From: Mesostigma viride
Lineage: Eukaryota; Streptophyta; Mesostigmatophyceae; Mesostigmatales; Mesostigmataceae
Direction of reading: 5' to 3'
Assembly (NCBI GenBank): GCA_009746045.1
Contig: RPFO01000156.1
Span: forward strand, 321,278-385,277
Length of the DNA: 64,000 nt
Made by a program: the position numbers and the translations under genes. The notes below the pieces were generated by a model. That model did no database searches, had not been told where the DNA came from, and saw only the letters and a program-made list of their open reading frames with translations. Position 1 is the first letter of the stretch. Each line of letters opens with the position of its first letter. Shown one piece after another: positions 18,763-53,282 of the stretch.

Positions 18763-21700
18763 CTAAATATCTGCCACTGTGCCCTCCCCGTCCCCTTCCT
18801 GCACGTTCACCCACACCTCCTGTGCACGGTTCAGGATCTGGAACGGGCTGGAGTACCCAGCAAACACCACGGTGGCGTTGTCATACTTGATGCCATCCTG
18901 CTTGAGGGCCCTGTGGGGGGGCAGGGGGGAGCATCCCAATCCGCACACATTGATAACTGATTGCTCATCTCGCTTGGTGCATGCATGCAACAAGTCGCAT
19001 CAGGTCATGTCAAGCACCTCCGCAAGCATGCACATACCAAGGTGTCAACGACCAACGTAGTGCGCTTTGAAAACGATTGGCGAAAGCGGCCATGAGGTGC
19101 TTACTAAAGCAAGAGCAAAAGTTGCTGCCGCCATAGAATCCAGCAAGTATGCATCTGCCCTGTCAAACGCAGCAATGGCTAACAAGTACTACATGCGAAG
19201 CAGCCATGCTTCACCAACAAGTTCTTATTAACCCGTGCACGGTGGCGTACCTGCCACGCAATACATCTACCCATGCGAGAAGGCCCAATCCTGCCTGATA
19301 TGGCAATCTTACTTACTCGCTCAAGCAAATTCCCTTCCTACCTCACATAGCCGTCCTCGCACTCCACATATAGGAGACACCGTCTTTTCTACCTCACATA
19401 GCCATCCTCACACTCCACATATAGGAGATCTAGTCTTTCCTACCACTCAAGGCATCATGACTCACTCCAGCAGTTTCCTCTTCCGCCTCTCATGACCATC
19501 CTCTCTTACTAACACAAATAGACCCTTAGCCCTCCTTATTCCAATACTAATAAATAATGCTAGTTACTCCAGCAGTTTCCTCTTCTGCCTCTCGTGGCCA
19601 TCCTCCTGACTCCTCCTGTCTTGGCCCTCCTTATTCCTACAATAATATATGTATACTACTATATCTATTGCTACTTACTCCAGCAGTTTCCTCTTCTGCC
19701 GCTCATGGCCATCCTCTTACTCCCACATATAGGGCTTAGCCTTCCTTATCCCTACAGTTATTTGATTGCTACTCACTCCAGCAGGTTCCTCTTCTGCCGC
19801 TCATGGCCATCCTCTTACTCCCACATATAGGGCTTAGCCTTCCTTATCCCTACAGTTATTTGATTGCTACTCACTCCAGCAGGTTCCTCTTCTGCCGCTC
19901 ATGGCCATCCTCTTACTCCCACATATAGGGCTTAGCCTTCCTTATCCCTACAGTTATTTGATTGCTACTCACTCCAGCAGGTTCCTCTTCTGCCTCTCGT
20001 AGCCATCCAGGTCGGGGAAACCGCCAAAGGGGCCGTACACCGCACGCGTGATGCACTCCTCGCGCTCGATTTTAACCTGTGGACATTAAAGCAAGCAAGG
20101 AAGGATGACCTAAATTTAGAACAAAGCCAAAAACAGCATCCACCGCAGAGAACATGGCGCACTGAGAGAACATATGGCGCACTCCTCCCACTCGATAGAA
20201 CTTTCGCAAACCAACCTCAACGAATCACGATAAATGGAAGGTGGGGGATAAAGCCTCGGGAGGTGGGGGTGTAATTAAAGGGATAAAATTATTATAATTA
20301 TCGCTGAGCGTTTTGTTAATTACACCCCCACCTGCCGAGGCTTTACCCCCCACTTTCCAGGGACTTAGAAGTGTGCAAACGATTGGGATGTAATACGTGC
20401 GTATGGTAGGAACTAACAAGCACAAGCCGACTGTGTGAGCACGTCCATGCAGTTTCCTTTGTGGAACAACGCACCAGTGCCTAGAGCGCAAGAAAAATCC
20501 AGGTATCTGAATTTAGCTACTGTAGACACCAGGCAGTGGTATCGTGGTATCATGGGCAGCTGCATTGAAGGCAAGTACCCTTGCAGGTAAAGCTGAGCGC
20601 ATTTCTACCCTGCGCTGGGCTAACAAAAGCAACTTTTCAATCTAATATGATGATGACTAATACGGATGGATAACCTAACTCCGACAGATCTCCCACAGTA
20701 CCCAAACACGCAGGAAGGATCCCAACAGGAAGGATGGATGCAACCCAGGAGCCCCTGCCGACGCCAAAGCAAAACCGTTGCATGGCTCTAGATATAAACA
20801 GAAATAGATATACCATGCACGCGATGCTGGTGCAAAACCGTTGCATGGCTCGGGATATAAACAGAAATAGATATACCATGCACGTGACGCTGGTGCAAAA
20901 CCGTTGCATGGCTCGGGATATAAACAGAAATAGATATACCTTGCACGCGACGCTAAAGCAGAAACGGAAAGCAAAAAGGGAAAGCAAAAAGGCAAGGCAA
21001 CAGGGAAAGCAAAAAGAGAAAGCAAAAAAGGGAAAGCAAAAAAGGGAAAGCAAAAAAGGGAAAGCAAAAAAGGGAAAGTAAAAAAGGGAAAGCAAAAAAG
21101 GGAAAGCAAAAAAGGGAAAGCAAAAAAGGAAGCAAAAAAGGGAAAGCAAAAAAGGAAGCAAAAAAGGGAAAGCAAAAAGAGAAAGCAAAAAGGGAGTCGT
21201 AGGTATGTCTTGGGTGGGTGCATATGTTGCTGGGTGTGCAACCTTTGGGTGTTACAACCTTTTTTTAGTGGGGGGGGCTGACAGGGAGGCATCGGCGGAG
21301 GCGCATCGGTGGGGGGGGTGGACAGGTTTGAGGGTGTGGATGGGGATGGCTTGGGTGAAGATTGATCACTACTGCTCGTGAACTGGGGGGGGGGGGGGGG
21401 GGGGGGGGCGGGCAAGGCACCGCGAAATTAAGCCTATAAATAGTTGTCTCATTGATATTGTAATACACCAATTGAAAAAGCGCTATAAAAATAGCTCTGC
21501 AGCGTGGCACCAAGCCAGGCCATCTACAGTGCAATCAGCCTTGCGCAGATGCACATGGACGAGCATAAACTTTTTATATAGGCGAGCCACGGCACCAGGC
21601 TATGCTCTTTCCTTATGCCATGCCAGCTCCTTGCTAATGGCAATCCAGTGCATTTAGCGCTTTAACAGACGGTAAAATACAGGGAACCCAAAGCAATGCC

Positions 21701-23067: not shown

Positions 23068-23900
23068 ATTCTGACACCGTGATCCAGAAACGTGCAAATT
23101 CGCGGATGGCGGGTGACAAAAACTCCACCCAGTCAAACGGGGTGTTCTGTTTCGGGGGCGCACTTTCGCGGATGCATCTGTGTGTTCATAGTTGCATGGG
23201 ATCAACGTCACAGAGACCGCAGCGATGGAGAACCGTGAAATTTCGGGTTTCTGCAGTCTGGATTCATCAGTCATTCTCTCCGCTATCCACGTATACCGCA
23301 GCCACGTGTTCTTAATTAGTTCTTACTGCGGGTCTGTAATTCTGTATGGCTTGATTGGCTTCCGCTACGGTAGGAGCTTCCATAGGCGGGGCACAGGAAT
23401 GCCAGGGCCGCACCGCCCGCACGACGTGACGCACCCGGCACAACCCGCAAGTTTTTCGCCAAGTTTCTCGCATGTAGGAGTGGCCGCATGGCTATTGGCT
23501 GGGCCATGGAAATGAGAGATCAAAACATTCACAGATCAAAACATTTTTTTAAATTTAAGAACATTCCTGACACAAGGAAGTAAATATTCAAGGAACTTAC
23601 TACCGTTTTTTTCGGGAACTAAACCCCACGTGCACAGTAACTTGTTCAGTAAGTACGGCATCGGCGATTCAGGTCAATAGTTGCCCGCATTAGCAGGGGC
23701 GTATCCCCAGGTCGAAGTTGACCCTCCCAACGGGCTGATGGTGTGCCGAAACTTGCAAGAGGCCGCCAGCCCCCGTTCCCCTGGCCCACATCGCGTTCGG
23801 CGGCGCTTCCAATAAAGTGGACATGCCCGCCCTGGTTATGTCCTCTTTAGCGTGCTAAGCCAAGGACGTGAAGTGGCTGTATTCAGGGCAGCCATACAGG
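23068..23900. promoter_or_regulatory. Divergent promoter region, SOUL (minus) / RPS14 (plus)
   Basis: 833 bp separate the two start codons, which point away from each other, so both promoters and 5' leaders must lie here. The SOUL side contains the hydrophilic leader before 23,067. The RPS14 side is moderately AT-rich around 23,520-23,600 (CAAAACATTTTTTTAAATTT) before GC-rich sequence. I see no TATA box at a convincing distance and no conserved motif I can name. No repeats of the window's transposon families occur here. Confidence 0.5.
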
Positions 23901-27433
<3,533 letters not shown>

Positions 27434-29229: not shown

Positions 29230-32200
29230 TCAACTGCCGCCAGCTGTCACCGTATCCCGTTGCAGCGCCACGGCGGCCGCCAGAATCGTGTCGAGCTCCC
29301 TCTGGAATGCACGTATCTGTGCGTCCTTGTCCCCCATCTCACGCCCGTACTGCTCCCGCAGGGTCGCCACGTCGCGCTGATATTGCTCCCGTAGCATGGC
29401 CACCTCCAGCCGGCACACGCGCTGCGTCTCGTCCACCACGTGCGCCCACTCGGCCTCACGGGCGCGCTTGGAGGCTTCCATGTCGGCCACGCGGCGCTCC
29501 AGCGCGCGGTACTGTGGAAAGAATCAGGTTGTTGGTCAGAATCAAACAGGTCGGTCAGTGGTGATACTAGTAGTATAATTGGTCACAATCGGCGTGCGGT
29601 ACTGTGGTTCCAAAGGCGGGGTTGCCCAGTAGGGCTCTGGAAATAGGCTTGTTGATTAGGGATTTGAATTAGGGTTGATGATAAGGGCCATGAAATAGGG
29701 TTGTGAAGACGGGGTCAGCTGATGGAGTCCGTGCCACCGGCCCGGTGAAGTAGTGCGTAGCACTGGTGAGGTGAGACAATGTTTACCATGAATGAACCAA
29801 TTAACGCGTACCATGTCCTTAGTCCTAACTATGCACACGTACCATATTCTTACTCCTACATAACCAATGTGCACCATGTTGTTACCCCTAACTAACGAAC
29901 ATCTACCATGCCTTGAAATATCCAGCACTTACCATCTCGTGACTAGTAAAACAAACCAGTGTTTACCAGCTTTTACTAACCATACCTAAAATTAACTGTC
30001 ACGTACCAGCTCCCAACTAACCACGTCTGTAATCAACTATCACATACACCCCCCCCTTGAGGTTTGAGAAGGGGGTCTGACCGCTCCAGGGCTGCAATCT
30101 TGAACCTGAAATCCAATCCAGGACTGGCAAAATTAAACATCAAAGTGGGGCGTTTGAAGACGCTAGACGGGTGAATTTGCAGTACACGTGTATGTGTAAG
30201 TATTACTATAATCCCTCCCCCCGGCGCGTCCCTGCACGCCTGCCAGAGCGAGCTGTTTCGGGGCTGAACAACACACCACTAGGCTGTGTGATGTAAATGG
30301 GCTTTTATACTATCCTGCTCACGCTTTCCCCTGGGTGCACATACTCCCCCTCACGTGCCACTGACCGCTACTTCGCAGCCTTTGCCTACTAGTGGTGCCT
30401 ACTTTAAGATCTTCTTGCCCAAAACCAGCTCTGCGATCTTAAAACAAGAAACTCCAAAATCCAGGGTCTTAAGATCTTAAACCTGGGCTTCTTAACCGGG
30501 TGTACCAGCTCCTAACTCACCATATCTTAAATCAACCATCACGTTACAGCTTCTAACTAACCACGTCTGTAATTAACTAACACGTACCAGCTCCTCACTA
30601 ACCATGTCTTCAATCGACTATGCCCGTACCATGTCCACCGAGGGCGGCACCCGCACCAGGCGCAGCTGCTCCCTGGCATCCGCAAGCTCCGCGGTGACGA
30701 TCGCCAGCTGCGCCAGCAGGCCCTTCTCCCGCTGCACCAGCGCCCTCTCGGCCTCCAACGCGCGCTCCAGTTTGGCCCGCAGCGCCTCCGCCTCGGCCAC
30801 CGCTTGGGCCAGCGCATGGGCTGATACAGCACCCGGCCCGGACGAGTCGGTGCCCATGCCGGCTCCGCCATAAGACCCTGCTCCATAGCTGCCTGCTCTT
30901 CCCCCATAAGACCCTGCAGCTCCCCCATTTGTGCCAGTCAAAGTAGCATTTACAGATGGCACAGTCGCGCTACCACCATTCCCTCCTCCCCCTCCTCCTC
31001 CTCCCCCTCCTCCTTGTCCCTCTCCTCCTCCTCCTGCTCCTCCTGCTGTGCCCAGCCTCCCCGCTCCTCCACCCGCCACCTGGCCCTGCCCCATCCCCGC
31101 GAGCGCCACTTTCAGCCGGCACTCGTCGCGCACCGCCTCCATCGCCGCCGCGTGCTCTGCTTTCAGCCGCCCCACGCCCTCCAGCGCGTCGCCGTACATG
31201 CGCTGCAGCATGTCGCGCGCAAGCTCCGCCTCCGCCACGCGGCGCATCAGCTCCGCCACACTGGCATCCTTGATGGTATCATTCAACATTGGTTGCTGGT
31301 GGCCTCGCAAAGCATCGTTCATCATAGGTTGCTGGTGGCCATGCAAAGCCGAAGAAGACGGGGCATTGCCGGTTGCGTCGTGCCGGGTGGCAGCCGTGGC
31401 AGTCTCCAGCAGCGGACGGTGACCATCCATCCCCTGTGTGGCACGCTCACCCACCCCTGTGTCTCTCTGGGACGCTCCAGGCCGGGACGTGGCCATGCTG
31501 GCCGCCTTGCTGGCACCATTAAGACTGCCATTGGCATTGTTGTTGCTATTGCTGCCACTTGCGGCAGCCACCTCCAGCACCGCGACCCGCTGCTTGAGCG
31601 CCGCGAACGCCGCCTCCCTCATCGCCAGCTGGTCCTCCAGGTGCCGTGACCGCGCCTGCTCGTGCGCCAGGGACCGTGCCAGGTGGCTGGGCCCCCAGGT
31701 GCTGCCCGACGGCTGCTGCTGACTGCCGTCACGGCCGCCCCCGGGAACCTCCCGTGTGGGGGGGCTGTCCCGGGAGGACAATGGCGGGGAGTCTGGGGGT
31801 GGGGGTGCCAGCGGGGGTGGAGATGTCGTGCGGGCACCCTGGCTACTGGTATGTTCCGGTCGAATGCTCGAGCTGTTAGCGTTGCCTGTGGTTGGCGCGG
31901 TGACAGCTGGCAGGGGTGTGGGGGGAAGAGGCAGCAAATTTGGTTACGAGCAAGTGTGTGTTGTGCTTGAGGGCGCGTGTGTTTCAGGGCGCGAGAACCG
32001 ATGGGACCGAGGGGCATGAACGAATGGCGTAGAGTGGCATGAAGGAATAGCGAAAAAAGCGGGGCCGGGCAAAAGGGGCAAGGCCGATATGCGAAGGATC
32101 CAAACCACCATTTCCCCTCCCCAACGTGGGACCGTAGGGGGTCTCCATGCCTTGTGAGGTACACGTGGATGCGTAGTGAGTGGTTTGGGTGCGTGAATAC

Positions 32201-38200: not shown

Positions 38201-41200
38201 AGCGTGGCGCTGCTGGCCTCCCTCTGGTGGCGCTCGTCGAGGCTGCGCTGAAGGTCCACTGCCAGTCGCGCATTCTCCTCGGCCATGCGCGCCTCACGCT
38301 CCTTGGAGCGGGCCTCCGCCTCGCGCATGCGCGCCAGCAGGCGCTCGTTCTCTTTCTGGTGGGTGGGGGTGTATTTGGCCCATGGTGAGGGTAGGGCGCA
38401 GCAACGGACCATTTGCTTAGGGGTTGTGTACAGTGCATGTAAGGTACCCTTGCTCACCGGCGCTTGTTCTCCTGCTGATGGGTGGGCGGGCGTCTGGCCC
38501 ATGGATAGGGTAGGGCGCAGCGGGACCTCTCCTGATCTAAGTACGGAGCTGAATACCATGAATAGGGGGCGCAGCGGGACCTCTCCTGATCTAAGTACGG
38601 AGCTGAATACCATGAATAGGGGGCGCAGCGGGACCTCTCCTGATCTAAGTACGGAGCTGAATACCATGAATAGGGGGCGCAGCGGGACCTCTCCTGATCT
38701 AAGTACGGAGCTGAATACCATGAATAGGTCGCGCATACAATGCAGCAAGACGCCTATGCCCTCACCCGGAGACCGGTGAGCTGCGCTCCTCCCACAAGGT
38801 TTTCACATGAAATGGGCAGCGGCACAGTCTCAATTAGGCGGCATGTATTCAGCGGCACTTCTTCAATTAGGAAAGATGGCGCGAGCGAGTAAGCAATCAT
38901 CCAAGATCCTCACCTGGAAGCCGGTGAGCAGCGTCTCTTGCTCCAGGATGGTGCGCCGCACCTGCTGCATCTCATCCAGGCTCAGGTTGGCCTGGTGTCA
39001 GCGACATCATGAATGGCAACGGCATATGGGAAGGGTGATGGCCACCGAGGAAGTGGGGCGAAGGGAGAGAGGTGAGTGGCGTCAGTGACCAGAGCGCGGT
39101 CGGGCGACCAACATCACGGTGATCATGGTGGTGAGGAGGCATGAGAAAGTGGACAGGGCTGTCCATGGGGAGAGCTAGTAGGACAGCTACATGGTCTGTG
39201 TAGGTGCGTTCTTGCGTATATAGTTATTAATCAATCATCTGCTGCCATGCGGCAAATCAGACACCTTAGAACTCCTGTGCGAAAACCCTGTGTAAGATTA
39301 TAAGATGGAGTGTGGTGGGAGGGTGTTATTGCTTGCGCGCACTATCCTAGCTTATGGTGGATGAGCTTATTATCCTTGCCCAGCCCCATCGACTCGCAAG
39401 AGATCCGACTCTGGCTATCTGTTGTGACGTGTGGCACCCTTCTCCATTCACCCATTCACCCATGACCTCACTCATGACCGCAACCCCACCTTCTCGCCAC
39501 CAGCGGCCGCGATCTTCTTGGCCGGGTCCGCGCTGAGGAGATCCTGTACAGAGCGCGGCATAAGGTATAGGGCAGGGATGGCCAGTAGGCGGTTAGGGTT
39601 CGCACCGAGGATGCCCAGTGCAGACAACAGCGTAAGGAAGCCAGAGGGGGTCATTGGGGTAGCCAAGTAAGGGAGGGTGACTGGTGAGGAAGGAGGAGAC
39701 TGGTGCTCAGACCACAGGAAAGGCAGGCAGAGAACAATGTATCAGGCGGGCGTGAATAATGCGCAGGGGAAAGTGATGGATGATGCGCAGGGGAAAGTGA
39801 TGGATGATGCGCAGGGGAAAGTGATGGATAATGTGCAGGGGAGAGTGATGGATAATGCGCAGGGGACAAGGACTAGGGCAGGCATGGACAGCAGGTGCTT
39901 GCCGTCGGGTGGTCAAGAGCAGGGGGGGCTAAATGTAAGCCAGCTTGCATGGGTCAAGGTCAGGGTATTCGGTGATAGAAATGCACACACGGAAAGAAGT
40001 ATTAAGTAAAGTAGGTAAGTGGTGAGTGGCGTAGTAAGTATCAAGAAAAAAGTATAGTGACGCAAATTCGTGTATATCAAGGCATGCGTATAAGAGGGTT
40101 TCAATCACCACCGACAGGCAATCGAGCAAGTTACACGCACTGCTGAAAGCCAAGAGAGCGTGTCTCACCTGGTACTGCATCTCCAGGTTGTACTTCTCCT
40201 TCTGCAGGGACCGAAGCTTCTCCTCGTAGGCCTGCAAAGGTGCCAAGGGGAACCGCAAGGTACAGACGCCAGTGGAAGACACAGCAGGTTGCAACAAGAG
40301 GTAATGATGAAGGCAAGTCAGCATCAAGGGCACAGGGGCGCGAGAAACCGTGCGAACTTGCACCGGGTGCACCTACGAATCACTGCTCGGTGGATCAATG
40401 CAAGTGCAAACCCGCGTGTGCCATCACCAACGTAGTACGATGTTACTGCAGTCGTGAAACCCATCTCGACCAGTTAGCAATGATTGTCAAAGAAAAATAC
40501 ATTACACTGTAAGGCCACCAAAGCACAGTTTGGAGGTGCCTCAGCATCCCTGATTTCTAGTCACCCAAACTTTTCAAGCCGTTTCCCGCTGGCTGTTGAG
40601 GAACACCATAACTGCCGTAGTGTACTAGAGCCCGGGCATGCAGGTAAGTATCAAATAGTATTGTTGATTGGTCTCCTAATGCGTGCACTCGCTGCTACAG
40701 AAGATGCTGCACGTATATCCATGGTGCTAACTGTTGCAAGTATACTCATATGTGTTATCACAAGATATTAGCATCAACCCACCTTGTACCGCTTGGCACT
40801 GCCTATTGAAGCGAACTGCCTATCAGTACAGTAAAGTAAAACCCGTGCAGCCCAGAGTTGCAGGTACACTGGCAAGACTTGATCCTCATCATTTCTCCTC
40901 CGCCCACCTCCTTGGGCCGCTGTGCGCTGGCTGTTACCGACGACTGACAGAGTATATTAGTAAGCTTTAAACGGAGTCAGATGACACCTCAGCCATACCC
41001 ACCTCTTTCAGCCATTGTGCAATCGCTGTTGCAGAAGACTTTTAATGTATATTACAAATTCCTTAAACATATTAAATTCTCATCAAACCCACCTCCTTGA
41101 GCCGCTTGGCGCTGGCGGCCGCTTCCTTGCGGCTCTCCCCCAGCTGTCTCTGCGCCTCCTTGCGCAGGGTGGTTTCTTCTGCCAGCCGCTCCCGCAGGCT

Positions 41201-44200
41201 GGCCACCTCCTTCTGCAGCTGCTCGTTGTGCACTGAGGTGGCCTTCTGGACCGCCTTTAGCTCGGCATGCGCACTCATTGCCACCACCTGGGGCAAGAAT
41301 AGAGGTACAAGTACGGCATGCGTGGATTATAAGTGCGCACTCATGGCTACCACCTGGGGCAAGGTTAGCGGTACAAGCACGGCGTAGCTGAAGGCTCGGT
41401 GCGCGCTCGTAGCCACTGCCCGGGGAAGGAAGCCTATAACTACATGGCCAGAGGGTGATGAGCATGCAATGGGGGCTCATGGCCACCATCTGCAGCGAGA
41501 ATAGAGGTACAAGTACGGCATCGATAGAGTATAAGTGCGCGCTCATGCCCACCATATGTCGAAGGAATTATATAAATTGCATGGCCAGAGAGTGATGAGT
41601 ATGCAATGGCAACTCATGGCAACCACCTACGACAAGGGCATACTGTCAACCATGATACGTGAGTGTCAACCACGATGCATGAGTGTCAACCACGATACGT
41701 GAGTGTCAACCACGATACGTGAGTGTCAACCACAATACGTGAGTGTCAACCACGATAGGTGAGTGCCAACCACGATACGTGAGTGCCGATAAGTTACAGC
41801 ATGATTGCGTGATCATTGCCGCCTCCTGGTCAGAGACTAAGCAGTCACCGGATACGTGGCGGATGAAACCATAAGAAAGGGCCACCGCGTATGTATTATA
41901 TAAGGGCCACCACAGTGGCCGCGATGGGGCATTATTAGCCGTACTGTTTCCTTGGCAGAAGACGGAAAAATAGTGGGCTCGCATAGCCACCCGCTGGTCA
42001 AACACACAGTTATGAACACAGCCAGGATGAGCTGTGTTTGGGCATACAAGGCCACCATGTGGGCAGACAAGGATTGCAACAACAGATATGGAAGTTTGAA
42101 TGGCAGTTTGTATGGTGGGACGATGAAGTACTTGGTGTCCGGCTGCCTCAGGGGCACACATCTAATGAACCCACATAGCGGGGCAGGGGAACAGGCTTCC
42201 CTATTGCAACTGCGGTTGCAAAGACACACGTATCCTATAACCCACCTGCTGCTGCAGGAAATGGAACTGGTGACTCAATTCCTCGTTACTAATGCCGACG
42301 CCGCCACCGCTGGCCCGTCCGCGCGCGCCCACGCCTGTCTTTGGAGGCGCAACCGCTGGGCCCCCCTGCTGGTGGGGCTGTTCCCCCCACGCCAGCCTGG
42401 CACCCGCGTGCTGTCCAGGTGGCGGGCCCCAACCAGCCGTTCCCCTGCCCATCCCTTGCCCCACTGCCAGGTGGCGGGCCAGACCCATCCCCCCCACTGC
42501 CTTGGACGGTGTCCCCGCAGGGCTAACTCTACCCCCGCCACCCCCCCCTACTCCTCGGCTCCCAGTGGAGGATCCGGGCCCTTGTGTCGTGGATGCAGGG
42601 GAAGATGCCTCGGGGGGTGGGCGGGCAGCAAACACGCCGCCCCCGCCCCCCCGCCGTAGGTCCAAATCGGCGTCAAGGGAGAGCAGTAAGGAGAGCGGGC
42701 GAGGGACGGGGGTGGGAGTATCCAGAGAATCCACTTCTGCCACCTTCACCCCTCCCGCGGCCACCGCTGCTGCAGAGCTTCCAGCGCCAGTGTTACCCCC
42801 CCCCCTTGCCCCTGTCGCGTCAGTCACCGGGATGCCGCCACCTGGCATGTGCTGCGGCACACCAGAAGAAGCGTGAGCCCCCAAGGCAGGACCATGGCTC
42901 CCACCACCGTCTGCCCCATGGCTGGCCCCGACCCATCCAGGATGGGGAGGTGGCGTAGCCAGGTTTGCCGTGGCCCCAGGCCCGTCCTGTGTGGCTGCAA
43001 TCGTGGCAGCAGATGACGCCCTCGGTGTCCCCTTTGGGGACTCGTGCATGCCTCTACCCATGGGTGACTCGTGACCCGCTCGACCGGTGGGCGAATCATG
43101 GCCACTTCTCACGGGTGTTGATGGTGACGACGGCGGCAGGCTGGGCAAGGGGTACGCCCTTGCTGGGCCTCCGATCCCGGTGGAGCTGCCCAGGGCGTCG
43201 TCCTCCTCGGTATCCCTGGCGCCCACGTCCCCATGGTGCCTGGGGGACGCCGCGGTGCCGGGCCCCGGGCGGACGGGAAGGGGCGCACCGATCTCCGCGG
43301 GTTGGGCTGCTGCTGCTGCTGGTAGCAGCTGGTTTGTGGATGCGGTGCTGAGGCGGCTGGGGGCGGTGCTCTCGGCAACACTGCTGTGGGACATGCCGGA
43401 TCTGGTGAGGCATGGGTTCATAGGGTCATAGGGTCATAGGTTCATCGGGTCATAGGGTCATAGGGTCATAGGGTCATATGGACATAGGGTCACAGGGTCA
43501 TAAGGTCATCGGGTCATAGGTTCATAGGTTCATAGGTTCATCGGGTCATAGGGTCATAGGGTCATAGGGTCACAGGGTCATAGGGTCATAGGGTCATAGG
43601 GTCATAGGGTAATGGGGTCATCGGGTCATGGGGTGGATAGATATGAGCAAGTTTCAACACAGGAGCAACGGGGACAAAGGGTGGGGTGGACGCGTGGCGT
43701 AGTCAGCACAAACGTAGTCGGGATGTAAATGCAGACAGGCGGTGCCAGCTGAGGCTACGTCTCCCCCACCTACACTGTCCATGTCAATTTGTGTGTGTGG
43801 CACTGATGGCGTAGCGAGCAAAGTTGGGATGGACGGTGTAGAGCGTTGCTCCACTTTGCTGCTCCAAGTCGGCTGCAGCGTACCCACATAGCTACTGCTC
43901 CTTGTACTCCACCCAACTCTGCTACTGCTCCCTGCAACCACCCATCCCTGCTGCTACCCACAACCACACACCTCTGCTGCTGTTGCCCGCAACCACCCAC
44001 CCCTGCTGCTACACGCAACCACCCACCTCGCCTGCTCTCGCTTGCGCTGCTCCATGTCGGCGAAGAACTGCCGCTTGGCCGCCTCCTCGGATTCACTGTC
44101 TGTGTCCAGGTTGAGCTCCTCTAGGGACGCCAGGGGGCGCCCAGGGGGGCCCTTGCCTGCGGACGAGTAGGCGGTGGAGGACTGCGACGTCTCCAGGGGG

Positions 44201-47200
44201 GTGGATGGCGCGTGGGGGGAAGCGGGACCTGGCGTGGATGCCCAAATGCATTCAATGTTGCATGGAAGGTGAATGGGCAGAATGAATAAGTCAAACTAAA
44301 CAGTCACCAATTACACGGACAGAGCAGCGACGTCAGTAATAGCCGTTATCCCAAGGTAGAGAGGAAGACAGGGACAGGACAAAAGTCAACAGGGGCCTAA
44401 CAAGAACGAGGGTACCAATAACGCCACGCAGTCTACGCGCTTTTCATTAACACGAACGCATACCTGGAATCCAATTAATGCTATCACAAATGGTGCTGAA
44501 CCCTTTACACGTTTCCTGACAAAGCAAGGACCTCAGTCATGAGCACCTTAGTGGAGACACCGCATCTAACGAACGTGACGTGGCCAGCATCAAGTGCTTA
44601 TATGCCCTACCACTGAGGGTACCACGCCACCTTTAGATACTCATGGCCACAAGGACTACAGCTGGGAGGTACGCAACCTAATAACCGGACCTGACCGGCA
44701 TTCTCATGGTCATAGCAGCCTAATTAATACACCACCCCTTCTAACTTGGTGTGATCAACTTATCAGAGTGCATTCACTGGCAAGCTGGGTAAATATGGCC
44801 GGCTTGAATCGACACACTTGCCTAGGTATGCCAGCCCGGTGGCAGGCCTTTTGTTCACAACAAAAGTACACTCGAGAATAGGACACAGACATGGGTTGCA
44901 TGATCGATTGCATACCGGGTGACGCCGTGGCGCCATCCTTTGCCCGCCCTGTAGGGGTAGATCCTGCGGCCTCTGGGACCCTGGCGCTTGCAGACATAAC
45001 CGTGCCCCCAGCCGTTGATGCTGTCCCTGGTAAACCACTCGGTGCGCTCTTCTCCTTGGCAGTTGCGGGCGTTGCAGCTGCTGTGGGCGCCCGCTGCAGG
45101 CTGGGTTTCTCGTCTGGGGTCGGTGGCTGCGCGGACAGCACATCGTCACCAGCACCCGTGGATGGTTGATAATCAAGATTATAAATGATAATGACGATAG
45201 TAGTCGTGGTAAACATTTAATAGCAATAACAGTATATAGCTAATAATAATAACGGCAGAATGCATTACCCCCACTGGTCGGCCATGACCACCCCTGTGCT
45301 AAACGACGGCCAAGTCAGTATGGCCATGTGCGCCACCATGTGGTTTGGTTTGATACTCTAAGCAAAAAGAGATGTGCAGATAGCCATGACGGTAAACGAC
45401 ATGCACGGAGGGGAGAACAGAGACAGAGAGAAAGAGAGAGAGGGGGGGGGGAGGAGGAGGGGGGGGAGTCAATCTCATACACACCTACGCGGTCACGCAA
45501 ACACTCACAGTATACTGTGGAGACAGCAAGTATTTCTGGGCAAAAGCGGAGTAGTCTACGTATCACGTCATCACCCAGGCCACCCAGGGAAAGGGCCCTG
45601 CATCGGAAGCACTATACAGGGGATGCTGCACCATATGCAGACTAATTTGGGCAACAACAAACCAACGCCTTACCTATGAAGTAGCACGGGAGTGGTCCAC
45701 AGTGTAAGCCGCAGGGAAATCAACGGAGTGACTAAAAGAGTCATGACTATATAGAGTGACCCATAGAGTGACCTACCGGTGGCGGCTGCGGCGTCGTCAG
45801 CGGAGGCTGCTGCGCTTGTACTCCCGATGCCCTTCGCGGTTCCTCCTCATCATCATCACCATCTTCCGCCTCAAATTCGTCCCCACTGCCGCCATACGCC
45901 CCCTTGTCCACCGTCCTGTCCCCCTCGAGTCCCCTTAGTATGCCCTTGCCCAGTGCGCCGGGGCTCTCGTCATCACTCGCCCCTGCATCCGAGTCATCGC
46001 TAATGTCAGCAGGTTTCCTGGCCGGCACCGCTGCCGGCTTCTTGGCACCGGTGGCCGGCGTGGAGATGGACAACCCTGGCTTGGTGGGCGCGGTGCCGGA
46101 TGCCAGTTTACGAGCGGATGTGCCTGTGTCCCCAGGGGCGGATTGTTTGCTAGCAGAGGCAGCTGCGGCCTTTGCACTGGCAGCCGCAGCCGCACGAGGG
46201 GGACCCGTGCGCCCACCCACCTGCGACAAACTATCCTCCTCATCCATTCCATCATCCTCTCCCTCGTCTTCCTCTAGGTACCTCCCCTTGCTGGCCTTGC
46301 TGGCAGTATTAGTCTTGCTGGCAAATGCCTCCTCTTCCTCATCGTCCGTGATCGTCAGCTCACTCAGCGCGCTCATCTCACTACCAGAGGGCGTGGGAGG
46401 CTCTGGTTCCTTGGGTTTGGTCAGCTCGGCGATCCGGCGCGCGGCGACCACGGCTGGTGGTGGTGATGGTAATGGGGGGGAGCAGGGGGGGGGGGGAGGG
46501 GAGGGGGCACCGGGGGGTGACAAGAGGGGGAAGGTGGGGTTGACAAGTAGTAGTAGGGGACATGGTTCAGGAGGGGAGGAAGGATCAGATAGGAAGGGGG
46601 GCCAAACAGGGGGGGGATGATGAGAGAAGATAATGGGTGGGTGGGTGCGGGAAGGGGGAAGAGGAAGAAGGGGAAAGAGGAGGGAGAAGGCGACGGAACA
46701 GGGGGGGAGGGGGGGAGATCAGTTATCCGAGTATAGCCGAGGCCTTGTCTGTCCCTGTCTCCCCACACACGCATGGTTAGCCATAAATCTCACCACCTTT
46801 GACGGCCCTTTCACTTGTCCAGACACAGCCACAAAACACAGCCCCCCTTGGGCCCACAACGATAACCCCTCGCCTGCCTTGTGGAGTAGACTTGGCTTCA
46901 ACTACCCCACTGTTTGGTTTTTCATTCGGCCCGTACCTAGCCACGACCACAGCGCTCACCGTTTGTAGCATCGGCCAATATCTAGCCGTGGCCACAACCA
47001 CTTTGCCATATAACCACCACCACGGTGCCAACCTGCAACAGCCTCAGCCTTAACCTAGCCACAACCACGGCACAACAATAGAACCACGACAGGCCGACCT
47101 TCGCCAACCTCACCCCTTAGCTAGCCACAACCACCGCACCAGGTCTACCCCACCTGTGGCAACCTCGCCCCTTAACCAGCCACAACCCCCGCACCAGGTC

Positions 47201-49212
47201 CACCCCTCCTGTGGCAACCTCGCCCCTTAACCAGCCACAACCACCGCGCCAGGTCCACCGCACCTTCCGCAACCTCGCCCCCTAGCTAGCCACAACCACC
47301 GCGCCAGGTCCACCGCAGCTTCAGCAACCTCGCCCCTTAACTAGCCACAACCACCGCACCAGGTCTACCCCTCCTGTGGCAACCTCGCCCCTTAACCAGC
47401 CACAACCACCGAGCCAGGTCCACCGCAGCTTCGGCAACATCGCCCCTTAACCAGCCATAACCACCGCGCCAGGTCCACCGCACCTTCGGCAACCTCGCCC
47501 CTTAACCAGCCACAACCCCCGCACCAGGTCTACCCCTCCTGTGGCAACCTCGCCCCTTAACTAGCCACAACCACCGCGCCAGGTCCACCGCAGCTTCGGC
47601 AACCTCGCCCCTTAGCTAGCCACAACCACCGCGCCAGGTCCACCGCACCTGTGGCAACCTCGCCCCTTAACCAGCCACAACCCCCGCACCAGGTCTACCC
47701 CTCCTGTGGCAACCTCGCCCCTTAACTAGCCACAACCCACCGCACCTTCGGCAACCTCGCCCCTTAACCAGCCACAACCACCGCACCAGGTCTACCCCTC
47801 CTGTGGCAACCTCGCCCCTTAACTAGCCACAACCACCGCGCCAGGTCCACCGCAGCTTCAGCAATGTCGCCCCTTAGCTAGCCACAACCACCGCGCCAGG
47901 TCCACCGCAGCTTCGGCAACCTCGCCCCTTAACTAGCCACAACCACTGCGCCAGGTCCACCGCACCTTCGGCAACGTCGCCCCTTAGCTAGCCACAACCA
48001 CCCCACCAGGTCAACCCCTCCTGTGGCAACCTCGCCCCTTAACTAGCCACAACCACCGCGCCAGGTCCACCGCACCTGTGGCAACCTCGCCCCTTAGCTA
48101 GCCACAACCCCCGCACCAGGTCTACCCCTCCTGTGGCAACCTCGCCCCTTAACTAGCCACAACCACCGCGCCAGGTCCACCGCAGCTTCGGCAGCCTCGC
48201 CCCTTAGCTAGCCACAACCACCGCGCCAGGTCTACTGCAGCTTCGGCAACCTCGCCCCTTAGCTAGCCACAACCACCGCGCCAGGTCCACCGCACCTGTG
48301 GCAACCTCGCCTCTTAGCTAGCCACAACCACCGTGCCAGGTCTACTGCACCTTTGGCGGCCTCAGCCATCTTCATGGTGCGCGCGGCCACCGTGTTCTTG
48401 ACCACGAAGTCGTCCGCGTCGAAGTCCCCGGACGACAGAAGCGACGAGTCGCGCCCGAACTCGGTTGAGTCACCCAGCGACATTGAGTCACTGTCCGAGT
48501 CCAGTGTTCGCGACTTGGATTTTTTTGTCGATGCCTTGCCCACGCCAGTTTTGCCCCCAGCGCCCACCCGTGCGCCGGCTTGCCCATAACCCCCAGAGTT
48601 GCTCGGTTGGGCATAGCTCGTGACGTACCGGCCCGCGTCCTTCGCCCCACCGTAGCCCTGTTGCAAGGAACCCGTGATGGGGCCGCGGGTACCGGTACCG
48701 GCCCGCAAGGGGGAGCTGAACGCCACGGCGGCCGTGTGGGTCATGACCGCCGTGGAAATGCCACCTCGCAGGGGGGAATCCCCTGTAAAAGGGCCGCTTT
48801 TCTCGGGATACCCTGCCGGGGACCGGGGCGAGGCTGACGAACCGTACGCCGACCCTGGGCCCACGCGGGGCGAGCCTACCAACCCTGTGGATCCGTAAGC
48901 GCTCCCGGGACCCGCGCGGGGGGATCCTACCAACCCTGCTGCGGATCCGTAAGCTGACCCGGGACCGGCGCGAGGCGACGACGCCTTGGTAGCCACGGAA
49001 AGCGAGCTGGTTCCCGGGCCTGCTCGAGGTGACGAAACCTTGCTGGCCATTGAACCGAAAGCTGCCCCTGCCCCTGCTCGTGGGGAGGCCACTCGAGCTG
49101 ATAAAGAGCCGCGGCCTCGAGGAGACAAGTCCGTATCTGAATCCGATGCCTGCAAAAATTCCTCGAATTCCGACATTTTCCCAGCCTTCGAAGCGTCCTT
49201 GCGTGGAGGCAT
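29230..49212 (-). CDS. CEP162: CEP162-like centriole/transition-zone coiled-coil protein, 18 exons
   Basis: CEP162 binds axonemal microtubules at the centriole distal end and promotes transition-zone assembly. Rebuilt exons, minus strand: 49212-48351, 46453-45777, 45126-44916, 44228-44027, 43401-42246, 41287-41093, 40231-40169, 39543-39490, 38991-38914, 38355-38179, 37462-37247, 36416-36348, 35536-35426, 34592-34419, 33821-33687, 33076-32638, 31906-30630, 29511-29230. All borders are GT-AG, all joints in frame; 2,125 residues. Residues 1-1,035 are disordered: SEFEEFLQASDSDTD at the start, a SPRAGPGSAYGS repeat, acidic patches, SLEELNLDTDSESE. Coiled coil dominates afterwards: LEQETLLTGFQ-KENERLLARM, WYAENQELL, ARIHELEQQ-VRKLQDALQR, VAALIQAAK. 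The C-terminus has RAFQRELDTIL. These blocks in this order match CEP162 as I remember the family. Exon 17 carries a poly-Gly/Ser insert. A further small exon cannot be excluded. Many introns reiterate their own splice junctions. Confidence 0.8.
29596..30620. repeat. Intron 17 repeats copying the exon 17 donor and exon 18 acceptor
   Basis: The exon 17 edge is GACATG|GTACGG on the coding strand. Variants of GGTACGTG preceded by CATG or CTG recur across ~29,805-30,045 and 30,500-30,600 (plus strand: GCGTACCATGTCCTT, CGTACCATATTCTT, CGTACCAGCTCC and others), roughly every 30 bp, with TAGTTAGGAGCTG-type spacers. Near 29,598-29,616 GGCGTGCGGTACTGTGGTTC duplicates the exon 18 acceptor (GCGCGCGGTACTGTGGAAA, 29,502-29,520). 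30,060-30,500 between them is ordinary intron with a short AAGATCTTAA cluster. Confidence 0.8.
36186..36660. repeat. Repeats flanking CEP162-like exon 12
   Basis: 36,186-36,320 is a CAGTCACAAT/CAGTCACTAC array of ~10-bp units just beyond the exon 12 donor. On the other side, the exon 12 acceptor with its edge (plus strand CTTGGCCTGGGCACGCGGCA, 36,411-36,430) is copied near 36,518-36,545 (CTAGGCTGGGCACGCGGCAA) and, more worn, near 36,619-36,645 (CGGGCTTCGCACGCACTTGC). Each copy is followed by the same GGGAAAYACATGGGTGAAA intron segment, giving a ~100-bp period. Confidence 0.8.
37640..37740 (+). mobile_element. Family C repeat inside CEP162-like intron 10
   Basis: GGCACCCTCCCTCCTTGTTG, GGGGTTGAAGGTTCCTTTAT and TGGTACCCATGTGACACAGT match the C bodies at 18,385-18,490 and 15,500-15,620. 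It ends GTGACACAGTCGTGTGCTTT TAGTTAATGG, antisense to the host gene. It shows that this family reaches genic introns outside the transposon clusters. Confidence 0.65.
38395..38735. repeat. Intron 9 repeats: 54-bp x4 and an exon 10 acceptor copy
   Basis: GCGGGACCTCTCCTGATCTA recurs at about 38,519, 38,573, 38,627 and 38,681, an exact 54-bp period, with TACGGAGCTGAATACCATGA in each unit. The block starts with 38,459-38,518 (GGCGCTTGTTCTCCTGCTGA, TGGGTGGGCGGGCGTCTGGC), a copy of the exon 10 acceptor region (38,341-38,400: GGCGCTCGTTCTCTTTCTGG, TGGGTGGGGGTGTATTTGGC). The 54-bp unit is a multiple of three and open in one frame, so it can look like coding repeats. Confidence 0.9.
40560..41035. repeat. 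Degenerate copies of the exon 6 donor in intron 6
   Basis: The true edge on the plus strand is CCCACCTCCTTGAGCCGCTT GGCGCTGGC (41,089-41,117). Copies: CCCACCTCTTTCAGCCATTG (~41,009), CCCACCTCCTTGGGCCGCTG TGCGCTGGCTG (~40,902), CCCACCTTGTACCGCTTGGC (~40,779), and a weaker TTCAAGCCGTTTCCCGCTGG near 40,575. Each strong copy keeps GTGGG at the donor position and is followed by related intron sequence (AGAAGATG/CGACTGAC, TATATTA), spacing about 107-123 bp. Confidence 0.8.
41288..42060. repeat. Copies of the exon 6 acceptor, then a 20-bp array, in intron 5
   Basis: The true acceptor on the coding strand is TTGCCCCAG|GTGGTGGCAA TGAGTGCGC (exon starts 41,287). Copies on the plus strand: ~41,335-41,368 (GCACTCATGGCTACCACCTG), ~41,400-41,430, ~41,474-41,505 (GCTCATGGCCACCATCTGCA), ~41,537-41,570 and ~41,608-41,640, about 70 bp apart, decaying with distance; weaker ones near 41,815 and 41,985. 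Between 41,640 and 41,790 lies a separate 20-bp array (ACGTGAGTGTCAACCACGAT), seven units. Confidence 0.82.
43405..44026. repeat. Intron 4: TCATAGGG array and exon 4 donor repeats
   Basis: 43,420-43,640 is an 8-bp TCATAGGG microsatellite with TTCATAGG and TCATCGGG variants. At the other end, next to the exon 4 donor (plus strand ACCCACCTCGCCTGC, 44,021-44,035), similar ACCACCC...CTGCTGCT blocks recur at ~43,926, ~43,960 and ~43,992 (unit about 30 bp: CAACCACCCACCCCTGCTGC). Each retains a GGTGGGTGGTT-type donor on the coding strand. Confidence 0.8.
44229..47029. other. Other sequence of introns 2, 3 and distal intron 1
   Basis: 44,229-44,915 (intron 3) and 45,127-45,776 (intron 2) show no gene-like content apart from a purine-rich GAGAGAAAGAGAG/GGGGAGGAGGAGG tract at 45,418-45,468. 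46,454-46,720 is a G-rich purine tract (intron 1, acceptor side; pyrimidine-rich on the coding strand). 46,720-47,029 grades into the minisatellite, with isolated older unit fragments (CCTAGCCACGACCAC, TCTAGCCGTGGCC). No transposon of the local families was recognised here. Confidence 0.6.
47030..48350. repeat. About 56-bp minisatellite of ~24 units copying the exon 1 donor
   Basis: Unit on the plus strand: CTAGCCACAACCACCGCGCC, AGGTCCACCGCACCTTCGGC, AACCTCGCCCCTTAA. It fills about 1.3 kb of the 1.9-kb intron 1. On the coding strand each unit reads GGCGAGGTTGCCGAAG|GTGCGG, while the true junction is GGCTGAGGCCGCCAAAG|GTGCAG at 48,351. So the unit starts with a copy of the last ~17 nt of exon 1 and its donor. 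Units vary (GCACC/GCAGC, CCC/CAC) in interspersed patterns, as expected for recombination-driven turnover. Confidence 0.95.
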
Positions 49213-50707: not shown

Positions 50708-52996
50708 ATGTTGGCGGAGGGACAAGACGCCCCAGGCCCTGTGCAGGACACCATACTCAGTGCAACTCTTCAATTTTTGAAGTCGCCGCCCTTTGTCGGT
50801 GCTGTACATAAATTCGTCGTGGAGCACTGCATGACTTTTGACTCTGATGAGAACAAGCTTGCATACACAAAGCTGCATCAGGTGAGCTGGCGACATTTTC
50901 ACGGATTCTTGCAATCTTGGGTTAGTTGACGCGATGTGTCGCAGAAAGTATACACGTACTATCATATGGACACGGTTTGATTTATTATGTTAGTAACAAC
51001 CCACGGAGCGTGTGGGGAAGCGGGGGAGAGTGTGCTCGGTTATTGCTAGCCTTGTGCCAGAAGAGCTGCCATTGCGTCAACCCTGGCTTTCAATTGCGTG
51101 CCGGCACATGCTTTTAGCACCCACGTCCACAGACAAACGGCTGTCTTTGTGGCTCTCGCCTCTAGTTGGCCATCTTGTTTCTTTGGTGTCCTTGTCAGCT
51201 GTGACATCGCAACGCTGGCAAATATTCTAAACATAGCCATACACAAAGTTGAAGGCACGCTTTGAATGAAGCCTTCTTCTTGCATCCAAGCGTGTAGTGC
51301 ACATTTCCACGGTAGCAATCCTCATTGTGCACGAGGTGTGTGCGGATGGTACAACCAGATGAGATGTGTGCGGATGGTACAACCAGATGAGGTGTGTGCG
51401 GATGGGACGCAGAAAGGAACGCATATGGCGCGCTTGCGTGTCCGTGCCAAGTATGTCAAGATGCCTGTACGAGAAGTCAAATGAGATAATGTGTGAGATG
51501 GCACAAAGGACATCAATCACCACACACGACGTTATACTAGCTGCTCTATGTGTTCTTGTATGCGTCTCTAGTGTGATGCTAAGGACTCTATAAGTAGTCT
51601 ATATTTTTTCCACGTAAGAAACTCCAGCGTGAGTGTGGGTGCGATATCTTCACCCTTGTCCCATACCCATGTTTGATGGTAGGTACCAAGCAATTCTATT
51701 AATGGGGTAAGCTCAGCTCACGCGATCCACCTGACGTCATGAACCGTTGACTGACCAAACATGCTGCGTTTGTGCGATAACGCACATCCAGTGCCCCGCA
51801 GTCACTATCCCTGACAACCTATACTGTACCCCCTGTGTATAAACCCCCTAATTCATTAATCACCCCCTAATTATTTGGGTGCACATGACTCTTTCAACAC
51901 CGTCTTTGATGATTTACCCCCGATGACAAGTCCTCTTGGCTCTTTGTTGTACTCTCTATGCCACAGCCCCCTGCATGCCCTACCCACGATGCCTGACCCC
52001 CTACATGCCCCCCTATCCTCTGTGTGGCACATCCTCTGTGTGTAACTGTCCGCCATATTTGAGCGCCCAGGACTTGGACAGCATCGCGTTTGATGATCTA
52101 CCTCCCCATACCGCACCCTCAATGCCACATCCGTTCGTGTGCAATCCCCCCATATACCTCTGTGTGCGCAGACTTTTTGAACGTCGTGTTTGATGGTCTA
52201 CCCTTTCATCCTGTACCCTTGAGGATTTATGCTCACGTGACGTGCGGGTTGGTTAATGAATGAATCCCATACCTACCGTGCCCTCCCTTCTATGCCACTC
52301 TTTCTTCCCCCCATATACCCCACATCCACAATAATCTGCCCGTATACTACTGCATGCGCAGGACTTTGTCAACATCGTGTTTGACTTGATTGAGAAGTTT
52401 CTGGACAGCAGCGGCGTACCCTTTGAGCAGTTTGCGGCCGCCTGCGAGCACGGGGTGGAGCACGGGGGGGGCGACGCGTTTGTCTTCCAGCAGATTATTG
52501 CCGTTGACGACTTCTCACGTATGTGCCATCGATAATAAACAATAAGTTCCTGTAACGTGTAAAGGGCCTTCACGGGAGCATTGCCTGACAACCTCTCTCA
52601 TAAGTGCAACAAATAACAACTACTCGGTTCCTCCCCCTCTCCCCCCAGCCCCCCACACCGTTTATCCCCAGCCAACTTCCCTCTTGCTGCTTTCCAAGCC
52701 TGGATGTATGCCACTTACTACACCCCTGCTATAGACCAATGTTTCCCTGCTTCATGTGCTGTAGATCCCTGGTGTACGCATTGCTGTCCTCGTAAACTTC
52801 CCCTTTGGTCTTGTTTGAGCTGTGGCAGCAAGTGGTCTTCTGCGTTTTGTAATAAATGTCTGTCATTTGAAGCCCTCCGCCCCAGATATCAGGGACATGA
52901 TGCCCATTTATGCAGGCACATATTCTGAATGTATACTCCCGCTCCGCCGTCACTCACGCATGCACACATGCACTCATGCCCCCCCCCCCCCCCCCC

Positions 52997-53054
<58 letters not shown>

Positions 53055-53282
53055 ACCAACACCAACACCATCACACCAGATTTTAAGGACATGATGCGCC
53101 GCATGTATGAGCGCATGAAGCACTGCCCGATGCACGCGCAGAAGCGCATCCAGGAGATGGCCACGACGGGCCAGGCCAAGACACCCAACAGCCCCACCGC
53201 GGCGTCTGGGTGCCCCGTGCCCGCGCAGGGTCTGCCCAGGCCAGGGTCCCGCATGGAGCGCCCGGCTTCACGCCTGGCATGA
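50708..53282 (+). CDS. CFAP36: BART-domain protein, CFAP36/CCDC104-like, 3 exons
   Basis: CFAP36 is a ciliary protein whose BART domain binds ARL3-type GTPases, which release lipidated cargo into cilia. Exons: 50708-50881, 52362-52518, 53080-53282; phases 0 and 1; 177 residues. The BART domain covers about residues 14-125: QFLKSPPFVGAVHKFVVEHC, FDSDENKLAYTKLHQ, DFVNIVFDLIEKFLDSSG, PFEQFAAACEHG, QQIIAVDDFS-H-FKDMMRR. ENKL.YT..H, EQF..AC and DDF..FK.MM favour CFAP36 over ARL2BP, which shares the fold. The C-terminal tail (~45 residues, Pro/Ser-rich) is much shorter than the coiled-coil tail of animal CFAP36. The start is the first in-frame ATG. Intron 1 contains three copies of the exon 2 acceptor region, intron 2 one of exon 3. 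It lies head-to-head with the CEP162-like gene. Confidence 0.8.
51330..52200. repeat. Intron 1 repeats: 27-bp x3 and exon 2 acceptor copies
   Basis: 51,339-51,410 holds three copies of a ~27-bp unit (GTGTGCGGATGGTACAACCA GATGAG). The exon 2 edge (TGCGCAG|GACTTTGTCA ACATCGTGTTTGACTTG) is echoed at ~51,885-51,915 (GACTCTTTCAACACCGTCTT TGATGATTTACC), ~52,059-52,101 (GCCCAGGACTTGGACAGCAT CGCGTTTGATGATCTACC) and ~52,164-52,203 (GTGCGCAGACTTTTTGAACG TCGTGTTTGATGGTCTACC). The last two keep a CAG acceptor. TGATGRTYTACC is shared among the copies but not the exon, so the copies derive from each other. Confidence 0.85.
52870..53060. repeat. Intron 2: exon 3 acceptor copy, poly-C and (CA)n
   Basis: 52,882-52,916 (CCCAGATATCAGGGACATGA TGCCCATTTATGC) parallels the exon 3 start (ACCAGATTTTAAGGACATGA TGCGCCGCATGTATG, 53,075-53,109), including a CAG acceptor. 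Between them are an 18-C run (52,980-52,996) and a (CA)n microsatellite (about 53,001-53,053) ending 26 bp before the true acceptor. Confidence 0.85.

Follow-up and report, generated by a model that had tools for sequence, protein, structure and literature searches.

Exon-edge copies and tandem repeats in introns of the streptophyte alga Mesostigma viride

Genes in the window

The sequence analysed here (hereafter the window) is a 64,000-nucleotide stretch of nuclear DNA from the streptophyte alga Mesostigma viride, a deep-branching member of the land-plant lineage. The nuclear assembly of M. viride NIES-296 totals 441.8 Mb and was built from PacBio reads at 113-fold depth, polished with Illumina reads and combined with optical maps, and repetitive elements make up 30.1% of its intron space (PMC6947507).

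Four genes were modelled in the window. The minus strand carries a SOUL gene (23067-18763; five exons, four introns; Pfam SOUL) and a gene of 18 exons and 17 introns (49212-29230), for which we keep the name given by a first-pass annotation, CEP162-like, as a provisional label; no Pfam family reached the cut-off in the one coiled-coil stretch of it that was scanned. The plus strand carries RPS14 (uS11; 24045..27433; Pfam Ribosomal_S11), modelled with five exons and with its first exon or exons missing from the model, and a CFAP36-like gene (50708-53282; three exons, two introns; Pfam ARL2_Bind_BART). All 23 introns of the SOUL, CEP162-like and CFAP36-like models are bounded by GT and AG, and the frames are open once the exons are joined. 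For two of the models, SOUL and CFAP36-like, the spliced product matches an annotated M. viride protein (jgi/Mesvir1) from end to end at 100% identity, which confirms these two models.

Copies of exon edges inside introns

The first-pass annotation had listed fourteen junctions in the SOUL, CEP162-like and CFAP36-like genes at which an exon edge and its splice site are copied into the adjoining intron. We assessed every junction of these genes with a strict test, in which a 50-bp junction window (40 exon and 10 intron bases) was compared between its own intron and 22 foreign introns, and also with the remaining 22 donors or acceptors, according to its type. The test was passed by 8/23 donors and 6/23 acceptors (14/46 junctions), so the exon-edge copies are real. 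Ten of the fourteen listed junctions pass, two more are plain tandem arrays, one is weak and one is unconfirmed.

The two clearest cases are donor arrays on the minus strand, both of which start within the exon. At SOUL exon 4 (19335..20008), a strict pass, a unit of ~98 bp consisting of 36 bp of exon end, the donor and the intron start occurs in ~7 copies that decay with distance. Its first and second decoys equal the real donor over 22 bp upstream and over 187 and 89 bp downstream, respectively. At CEP162-like exon 1 (47042..48367), a minisatellite of 55-bp units, of which 23 starts were located, includes the exon end (~17 bp) and donor in its first unit. This donor fails the strict test narrowly, as does the CEP162-like exon 12 acceptor (36404..36633, minus strand; 104-bp tandem unit with ~13 bp of exon), yet both lie at clear tandem arrays (TRF 47097-48357 and 36417-36633, respectively).

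The other listed CEP162-like junctions, all on the minus strand, vary in form. The donors that pass are those of exon 4, with an array at 43891..44061; exon 6, with four degenerate copies of 24 bp of exon plus donor (40550..41116); and exon 13, with one copy at 35320..35440 and a weaker second one near 35125. The acceptors that pass are those of exon 6 (41267..41637; a unit of ~66 bp with ~20 bp of exon in each), exon 10 (one copy, 38338..38487), exon 14 (34560..34956; a single distant copy of the exon start) and exon 18, the last by one point only. In the CFAP36-like gene on the plus strand, the acceptors of exon 2 (51880..52390; three copies upstream) and exon 3 (52880..53115; one copy) pass as well.

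Four strict passes were absent from the first list: the CEP162-like donors of exon 9 (a copy at 38760..38937) and exon 10 (copies at 37890..38213), both on the minus strand, and the CFAP36-like donors of exon 1, by one point, and exon 2 (one copy, 52496..52622, plus strand). Two listed donors fared worse. At CEP162-like exon 17 (30502..30637, minus strand), the match fails the strict test, being equalled by 5/22 foreign introns, and is weak: its 41-bp array begins 21 bp inside the intron, and the exon share is only ~8 bp. The copy at the SOUL exon 3 donor is unconfirmed, as it is equalled by 4/22 foreign introns and 12/22 other junctions.

Windows drawn from deeper in the exons recur less often, as the first-pass annotation would have it. 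With a chance level of ~1 in 23 for beating all foreign introns, 40-bp exon windows that touch the junction do so in 12/46 cases, those moved 20 bp deeper in 1/44 and those 40-400 bp deep in 8/176, while reverse-complement junction windows do so in 4/46. It is extremely unlikely that the pattern arises from similarity by chance, from repeats in coding sequence or from errors of assembly. The coiled-coil exons are repetitive and short matches are common, but the foreign-intron, reverse-complement and exon-internal controls argue against such an origin, as do the read depth and polishing of the published assembly (PMC6947507) and the recurrence of the pattern at other loci (see below).

RPS14 is the gene without such copies: 0/8 of its junctions are matched in its own introns, and its intron-interior matches are at ~1%. 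Direct repeats are almost absent from its introns of 1488 and 1133 bp (23600-27500), in contrast to those of its three neighbours. This hints that genes may differ from one another as much as sites do, which, coming from one gene, we offer as a lead. A tie between the scarcity of repeats in RPS14 and its expression level would be a guess from that one gene.

Copy similarity falls with distance from the junction (pooled P 0.0002 over seven arrays, with the exon 1 array limited to 15 copies). The earlier statement that copies degenerate with distance is thus right overall, but three of the seven arrays show no trend, and the same decay is seen among intron-interior repeats (11/15 negative). We make no claims from gapped global copy-to-copy identities, because shuffled sequence scores nearly as high in such alignments.

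Duplication throughout the introns

The first-pass annotation had also held that it is the junction that is repeated in every case. This does not survive a survey of the intron interiors. Direct repeats within 400 bp at a score of at least 15 occur in 255/894 intron windows of the three genes, versus 150/1420 intergenic, 39/324 coding and 3/192 RPS14 gene windows, and an inverted-repeat control finds them in 10/894 intron windows. Of the windows taken from intron interiors, 152/424 outscore every foreign intron, a rate at least as high as the 12/46 of exon windows at the junction. After merging, 15/24 arrays extend less than 6 bp into an exon and 9/24 reach the exon edge. When copies are sought on either side of a point, the profile is 0.24-0.26 at the junction and 0.13-0.27 through the intron, approximately level to +250 bp, and falls to zero from 40 bp inward in exons. 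The recurrence of intron interiors, together with this level either-side profile, rules out the junction as the sole target.

Tandem arrays reported by TRF, with units of 2-184 bp, are spread throughout the window. Those wholly within coding exons have periods divisible by three: 51, 36 and 15, the last with a second TRF entry of period 3. They include two coding minisatellites in the CEP162-like gene, one in exon 1 (48842-48978, period 51 bp) and one in exon 17 (31278-31349, period 36 bp).

The junction may still be favoured without being the sole target. Uniform placement would put 4.4 of the 24 arrays at an exon edge, versus the 9 observed (P 0.011), or 6.1 if a 1.4-fold detection boost is allowed (P 0.085). 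Restricting the exon overhang to 20-60 bp lowers the expectation to 1.0-3.0 (P ~0.001 or less), or 1.4-4.2 with the same boost (P 0.013 or less). These figures are only suggestive of a real excess of arrays at exon edges, the allowed overhang being our own choice. A boost of this kind is expected from simulation: when only the exon copy is conserved, the junction gains a detection advantage of 1.24-1.53-fold.

A one-sided comparison, in which copies are sought only on the intron side of a point, is fairer because the exon cannot then serve as the second copy. In the window, and excluding four junctions whose introns are too short for interior controls, junctions exceed interior points at score 14 (16/42, P 0.001) and score 16 (12/42, P 0.009), with no significant excess at score 18 (7/42, P 0.32).

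Kinesin introns elsewhere in the genome

We located kinesin motor domains in the genome (129 matches) and retrieved the stretches around them. Wherever two Pfam matches abutted or nearly did so, we called the splice sites between them; such pairs were present in 27 stretches and lacking in seven further ones. The calls were made with a homology-anchored splice caller that was exact in 81/81 trials on the window genes, which were also its training set. A general gene finder was dropped, as it had 20/27 introns exact. Of 44 calls, we retained 32 (at 22 loci); before counting, we discarded four that came from a duplicate contig and eight whose score was low or whose length was wrong.

The exon-edge copies recur in this sample. 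The strict test is passed by 17/64 kinesin junctions (13/32 donors, 4/32 acceptors), and exon-internal windows reach score 14 in 2/128 cases. At score 18, 14/64 kinesin junctions have a copy versus 12.1% of interior points (P 0.006). The weak-score excess in the window could be read as a detection advantage, but the kinesin donors show an excess at scores 18-20 as well, and we report it as unexplained.

When the window and the kinesins are pooled, donors stand approximately twofold above interior points at scores 14-20, while acceptors are at most 1.7-fold above them and show no excess at score 18. The one-sided donor profile peaks at the junction (17/54 at score 16, 14/54 at score 20) and drops to 0.06-0.20 across +60 to +300 bp, reaching its baseline by ~+60 to +100 bp. 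The acceptor profile is flat at score 20 (5/54) and rises slightly near the junction at score 16. The P values given in this section derive from repeated looks at a single sample of modest size. Donors at score 18 number 15/53 versus 12.6% of interior points, a ratio of 2.25 (bootstrap 95% 1.48-4.24 over 25 loci), which gives P 0.0008 if no exon advantage is assumed, 0.045 if exon conservation confers a 1.5-fold advantage and 0.33 if it confers a twofold one. At scores 16-18, the donor excess is thus above the simulated 1.24-1.53-fold advantage of a conserved exon copy. Acceptors show no excess at score 18 (5/53 versus 12.7%) or at score 24 (1/53 versus 10.2%). Strict passes divide into 21/55 donors and 10/55 acceptors (P 0.033).

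The idea of a process that duplicates DNA at splice junctions, put forward in the first-pass annotation, is thus borne out in part: donors exceed intron interiors, but the interiors themselves duplicate heavily and the acceptors do not stand out at strong scores. One explanation is that duplication is aimed at donor sites, for example by breakage or template switching at a structure formed co-transcriptionally at the exon end. The junction peak in the donor profile, the absence of such a peak for acceptors at score 20, the pooled ratio, the split in strict passes and the nine arrays at exon edges all point this way. Against it, the peak comes mainly from the kinesin sample, whose donors alone give 11/32 at score 18, whereas window donors alone show no significant excess at that score (4/21 versus 13%). 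The signal also weakens at score 24, where the pooled donor excess is not significant (8/53 versus 10.2%, P 0.16), part of it is a detection advantage, and intron interiors duplicate too. On balance, we consider aimed duplication possible but rather doubtful. In a more specific version, which strikes us as unlikely, the exon end acts as a seed: a donor-directed duplication process, linked to transcription or splicing, would repeatedly place the final 10-45 bp of the exon, together with the donor, in the intron. If true, introns would expand outward from the 5' side, and the donor/acceptor asymmetry would be a record of the spliceosome's choice between identical sites.

Repeated splice sites within introns are also reminiscent of introners or of transposable elements that bear splice sites. 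The copies described here are tandem, however, and those that pass the strict test fit their own junction better than any other. Searches of the genome with DNA of the SOUL exon 4 stretch and the CEP162-like intron 5-exon 6 stretch found the home locus only and no second haplotype, at the sensitivity of the search tool. An origin in introner-like or other mobile elements is therefore highly improbable.

Condition of the copied splice sites

If the copies were kept as decoys, their splice dinucleotides should be intact more often than their surroundings. We masked the splice dinucleotide in the search and compared its intact rate with that of other dinucleotides in the same arrays. In the window, 23/47 copies have an intact splice dinucleotide versus 22.8 expected, or 16/26 versus 12.6 without the exon 1 array. 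The kinesin copies, found at a higher score cut-off, give 20/28 versus 17.5, and the two sets together 43/75 versus 40.3. The first-pass annotation saw these introns as built out of decoy splice sites, and a rate this close to background does not agree with decoys that are maintained.

Individual arrays differ. At SOUL exon 4, GT is kept in 5/6 copies, and agreement between copies is higher in the exon-derived parts (0.931) than in the intron-derived parts (0.687); for the three distal copies, the values are 0.924 and 0.56. The intron part of this unit includes AT-rich stretches that vary in length. Better conservation of the exon part is not what simple tandem decay would predict. In the CEP162-like exon 1 array, the two parts agree equally well (0.891 exon-derived, 0.888 intron-derived), and GT is kept in 8/22 copies.

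Decoys retained by selection, either for regulated splicing or as buffers, would fit the SOUL exon 4 array, with its better-kept exon part and mostly intact GTs. The background rate of intact dinucleotides and the frequent loss of GT in the exon 1 array count against this explanation, as does the sequence past the real SOUL exon 4 donor, where the frame runs straight into a stop codon and splicing from the next donor would yield a truncated protein. We therefore regard selected decoys as very unlikely. In the two annotated proteins available for comparison (SOUL and CFAP36-like), the outermost splice sites are the ones used.

Relation to known systems

The first-pass annotation knew of no described system of this kind, but one has been published. 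In amphioxus, 'mirage' minisatellites are tandem duplications, minisatellite-like, across 5' or 3' exon-intron boundaries, reported in Adh3, the globin genes BflGb6 and BflGb9, and TnC (PMC3087553; PMC3902484). Their units are 10-72 and 150-160 bp long, splice signals are present in many but not all units, and regular splicing has been reported (PMC3087553; PMC3902484). Imperfect splice-site repeats are described alongside the TnC mirages in amphioxus PGBD5 (PMC3902484).

The M. viride arrays resemble mirages in several ways: tandem units span the exon-intron boundary, both boundary types are duplicated in the window and in the kinesins, and many but not all copies carry AG or GT. They are unlike mirages in their host, a streptophyte alga and not a lancelet, in which 14/46 and 17/64 junctions pass a strict test. 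They also differ in that the donor excess was measured against intron interiors and in that decayed copies lie beside young arrays. Length polymorphism is reported for the amphioxus mirages. The one duplicate contig pair compared in M. viride, identical at 3792/3794 columns, shows no array difference. Separately, contigs C887 and C1641 hold two apparent copies of one TCP1 gene, with an intron of ~0.9 kb in one and ~4.1 kb in the other, as judged from match coordinates only.

We think that the M. viride repeats are probably mirage-type minisatellites, a kind already published for amphioxus, and that what is new is the algal host. The main text of one M. viride genome paper contains neither 'tandem repeat' nor 'minisatellite' nor any word in 'splic-', and describes no exon-edge repeats (PMC6947507); in the available text of the other, 'intron' does not appear and exon-edge repeats are not described (PMC7027972). 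Among the matches listed, comprising open-licence titles and abstract openings, none describes exon-edge repeats in a green-algal nuclear genome.

Other systems are neighbours of this structure. In Chlamydomonas and Volvox, tandem-repeat density is highest in introns among the regions compared, and repeats are more frequent near intron-exon junctions, with dinucleotide GT/AC motifs stressed (PMC3887541). The M. viride repeats are likewise dense in introns, but the structure is not the same: the passages on these repeats describe none that combine an exon edge with its splice site, and 'Mesostigma' is absent from the main text of that study (PMC3887541). In the potato RdRp gene and vertebrate ATP2A1, splice signals have been copied by short tandem duplication, with a new intron arising from a duplicated exonic AGGT or, in potato, from a duplicated intron-exon stretch (PMC4974935). 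The M. viride copies, unlike these, lie inside existing introns of the gene models and point to no new intron. Ordinary intronic minisatellites or VNTRs differ too, in that the M. viride arrays take in exon edges and are denser in the introns of three genes than in intergenic DNA.

A model of intron growth

The reading that we favour, and consider likely to be correct, is that serial short tandem duplication proceeds neutrally in these genes, that units straddling a junction are tolerated and that a donor excess is left over. The repeat density suggests that introns grow by such duplication anywhere in their DNA, with copies mostly tens of bases to ~200 bp apart, and replication slippage or unequal exchange would be a plausible origin. 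Whenever a unit happened to straddle a junction, the intron would receive a duplicate of the exon edge together with the splice site. Duplications inside exons would be removed by selection unless in frame. If splicing keeps the outermost site, as it does in the two annotated proteins, junction copies would be tolerated and would then drift, their splice dinucleotides decaying along with their surroundings.

The exonic copy, by comparison, would remain under purifying selection, so that old exon-edge copies could still be identified once the intron portion of the unit had lost its similarity, to the extent estimated by our simulation. The junction would look like the repeated element because its exonic reference copy is conserved. 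As for the donor excess, donors may be duplicated more often or may be more tolerant of duplication, since a donor decoy sits downstream of a site that has already been recognised. A decoy acceptor, lying upstream, would be encountered before the real site and hence be selected against. The remaining donor excess could instead be mutational.

The M. viride repeats extend a curiosity of a few lancelet genes to many loci of a deep-branching alga in the land-plant lineage, and they offer a route of intron lengthening that can be counted. That an excess is seen at donors and not at acceptors provides a prediction by which selection imposed by splicing on duplications can be tested. At SOUL exon 4, nature has set up an experiment of its own: three donors in tandem, with exon ends at 19973, 19875 and 19777, are identical from -22 to at least +89, and the annotated protein uses the first. 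It therefore allows a direct test of position versus sequence in splice-site choice.

Other repeats in the window

Several further repeats were observed. The window begins with long GAGG and TGCG simple repeats, followed by a 184-bp unit present four times (1-375 and 908-1635). A 748-aa open frame on the minus strand (11210-13456) has an RVT_1 domain and probably belongs to a non-LTR retrotransposon. A second RT-like frame lies at 55735-56235, with kindred fragments at ~60-61 kb, as judged by eye from the ORF list. Finally, SOUL intron 3 contains a 44-bp inverted repeat (20235-20278 and 20316-20359, 93% match), possibly a small inverted-repeat element.
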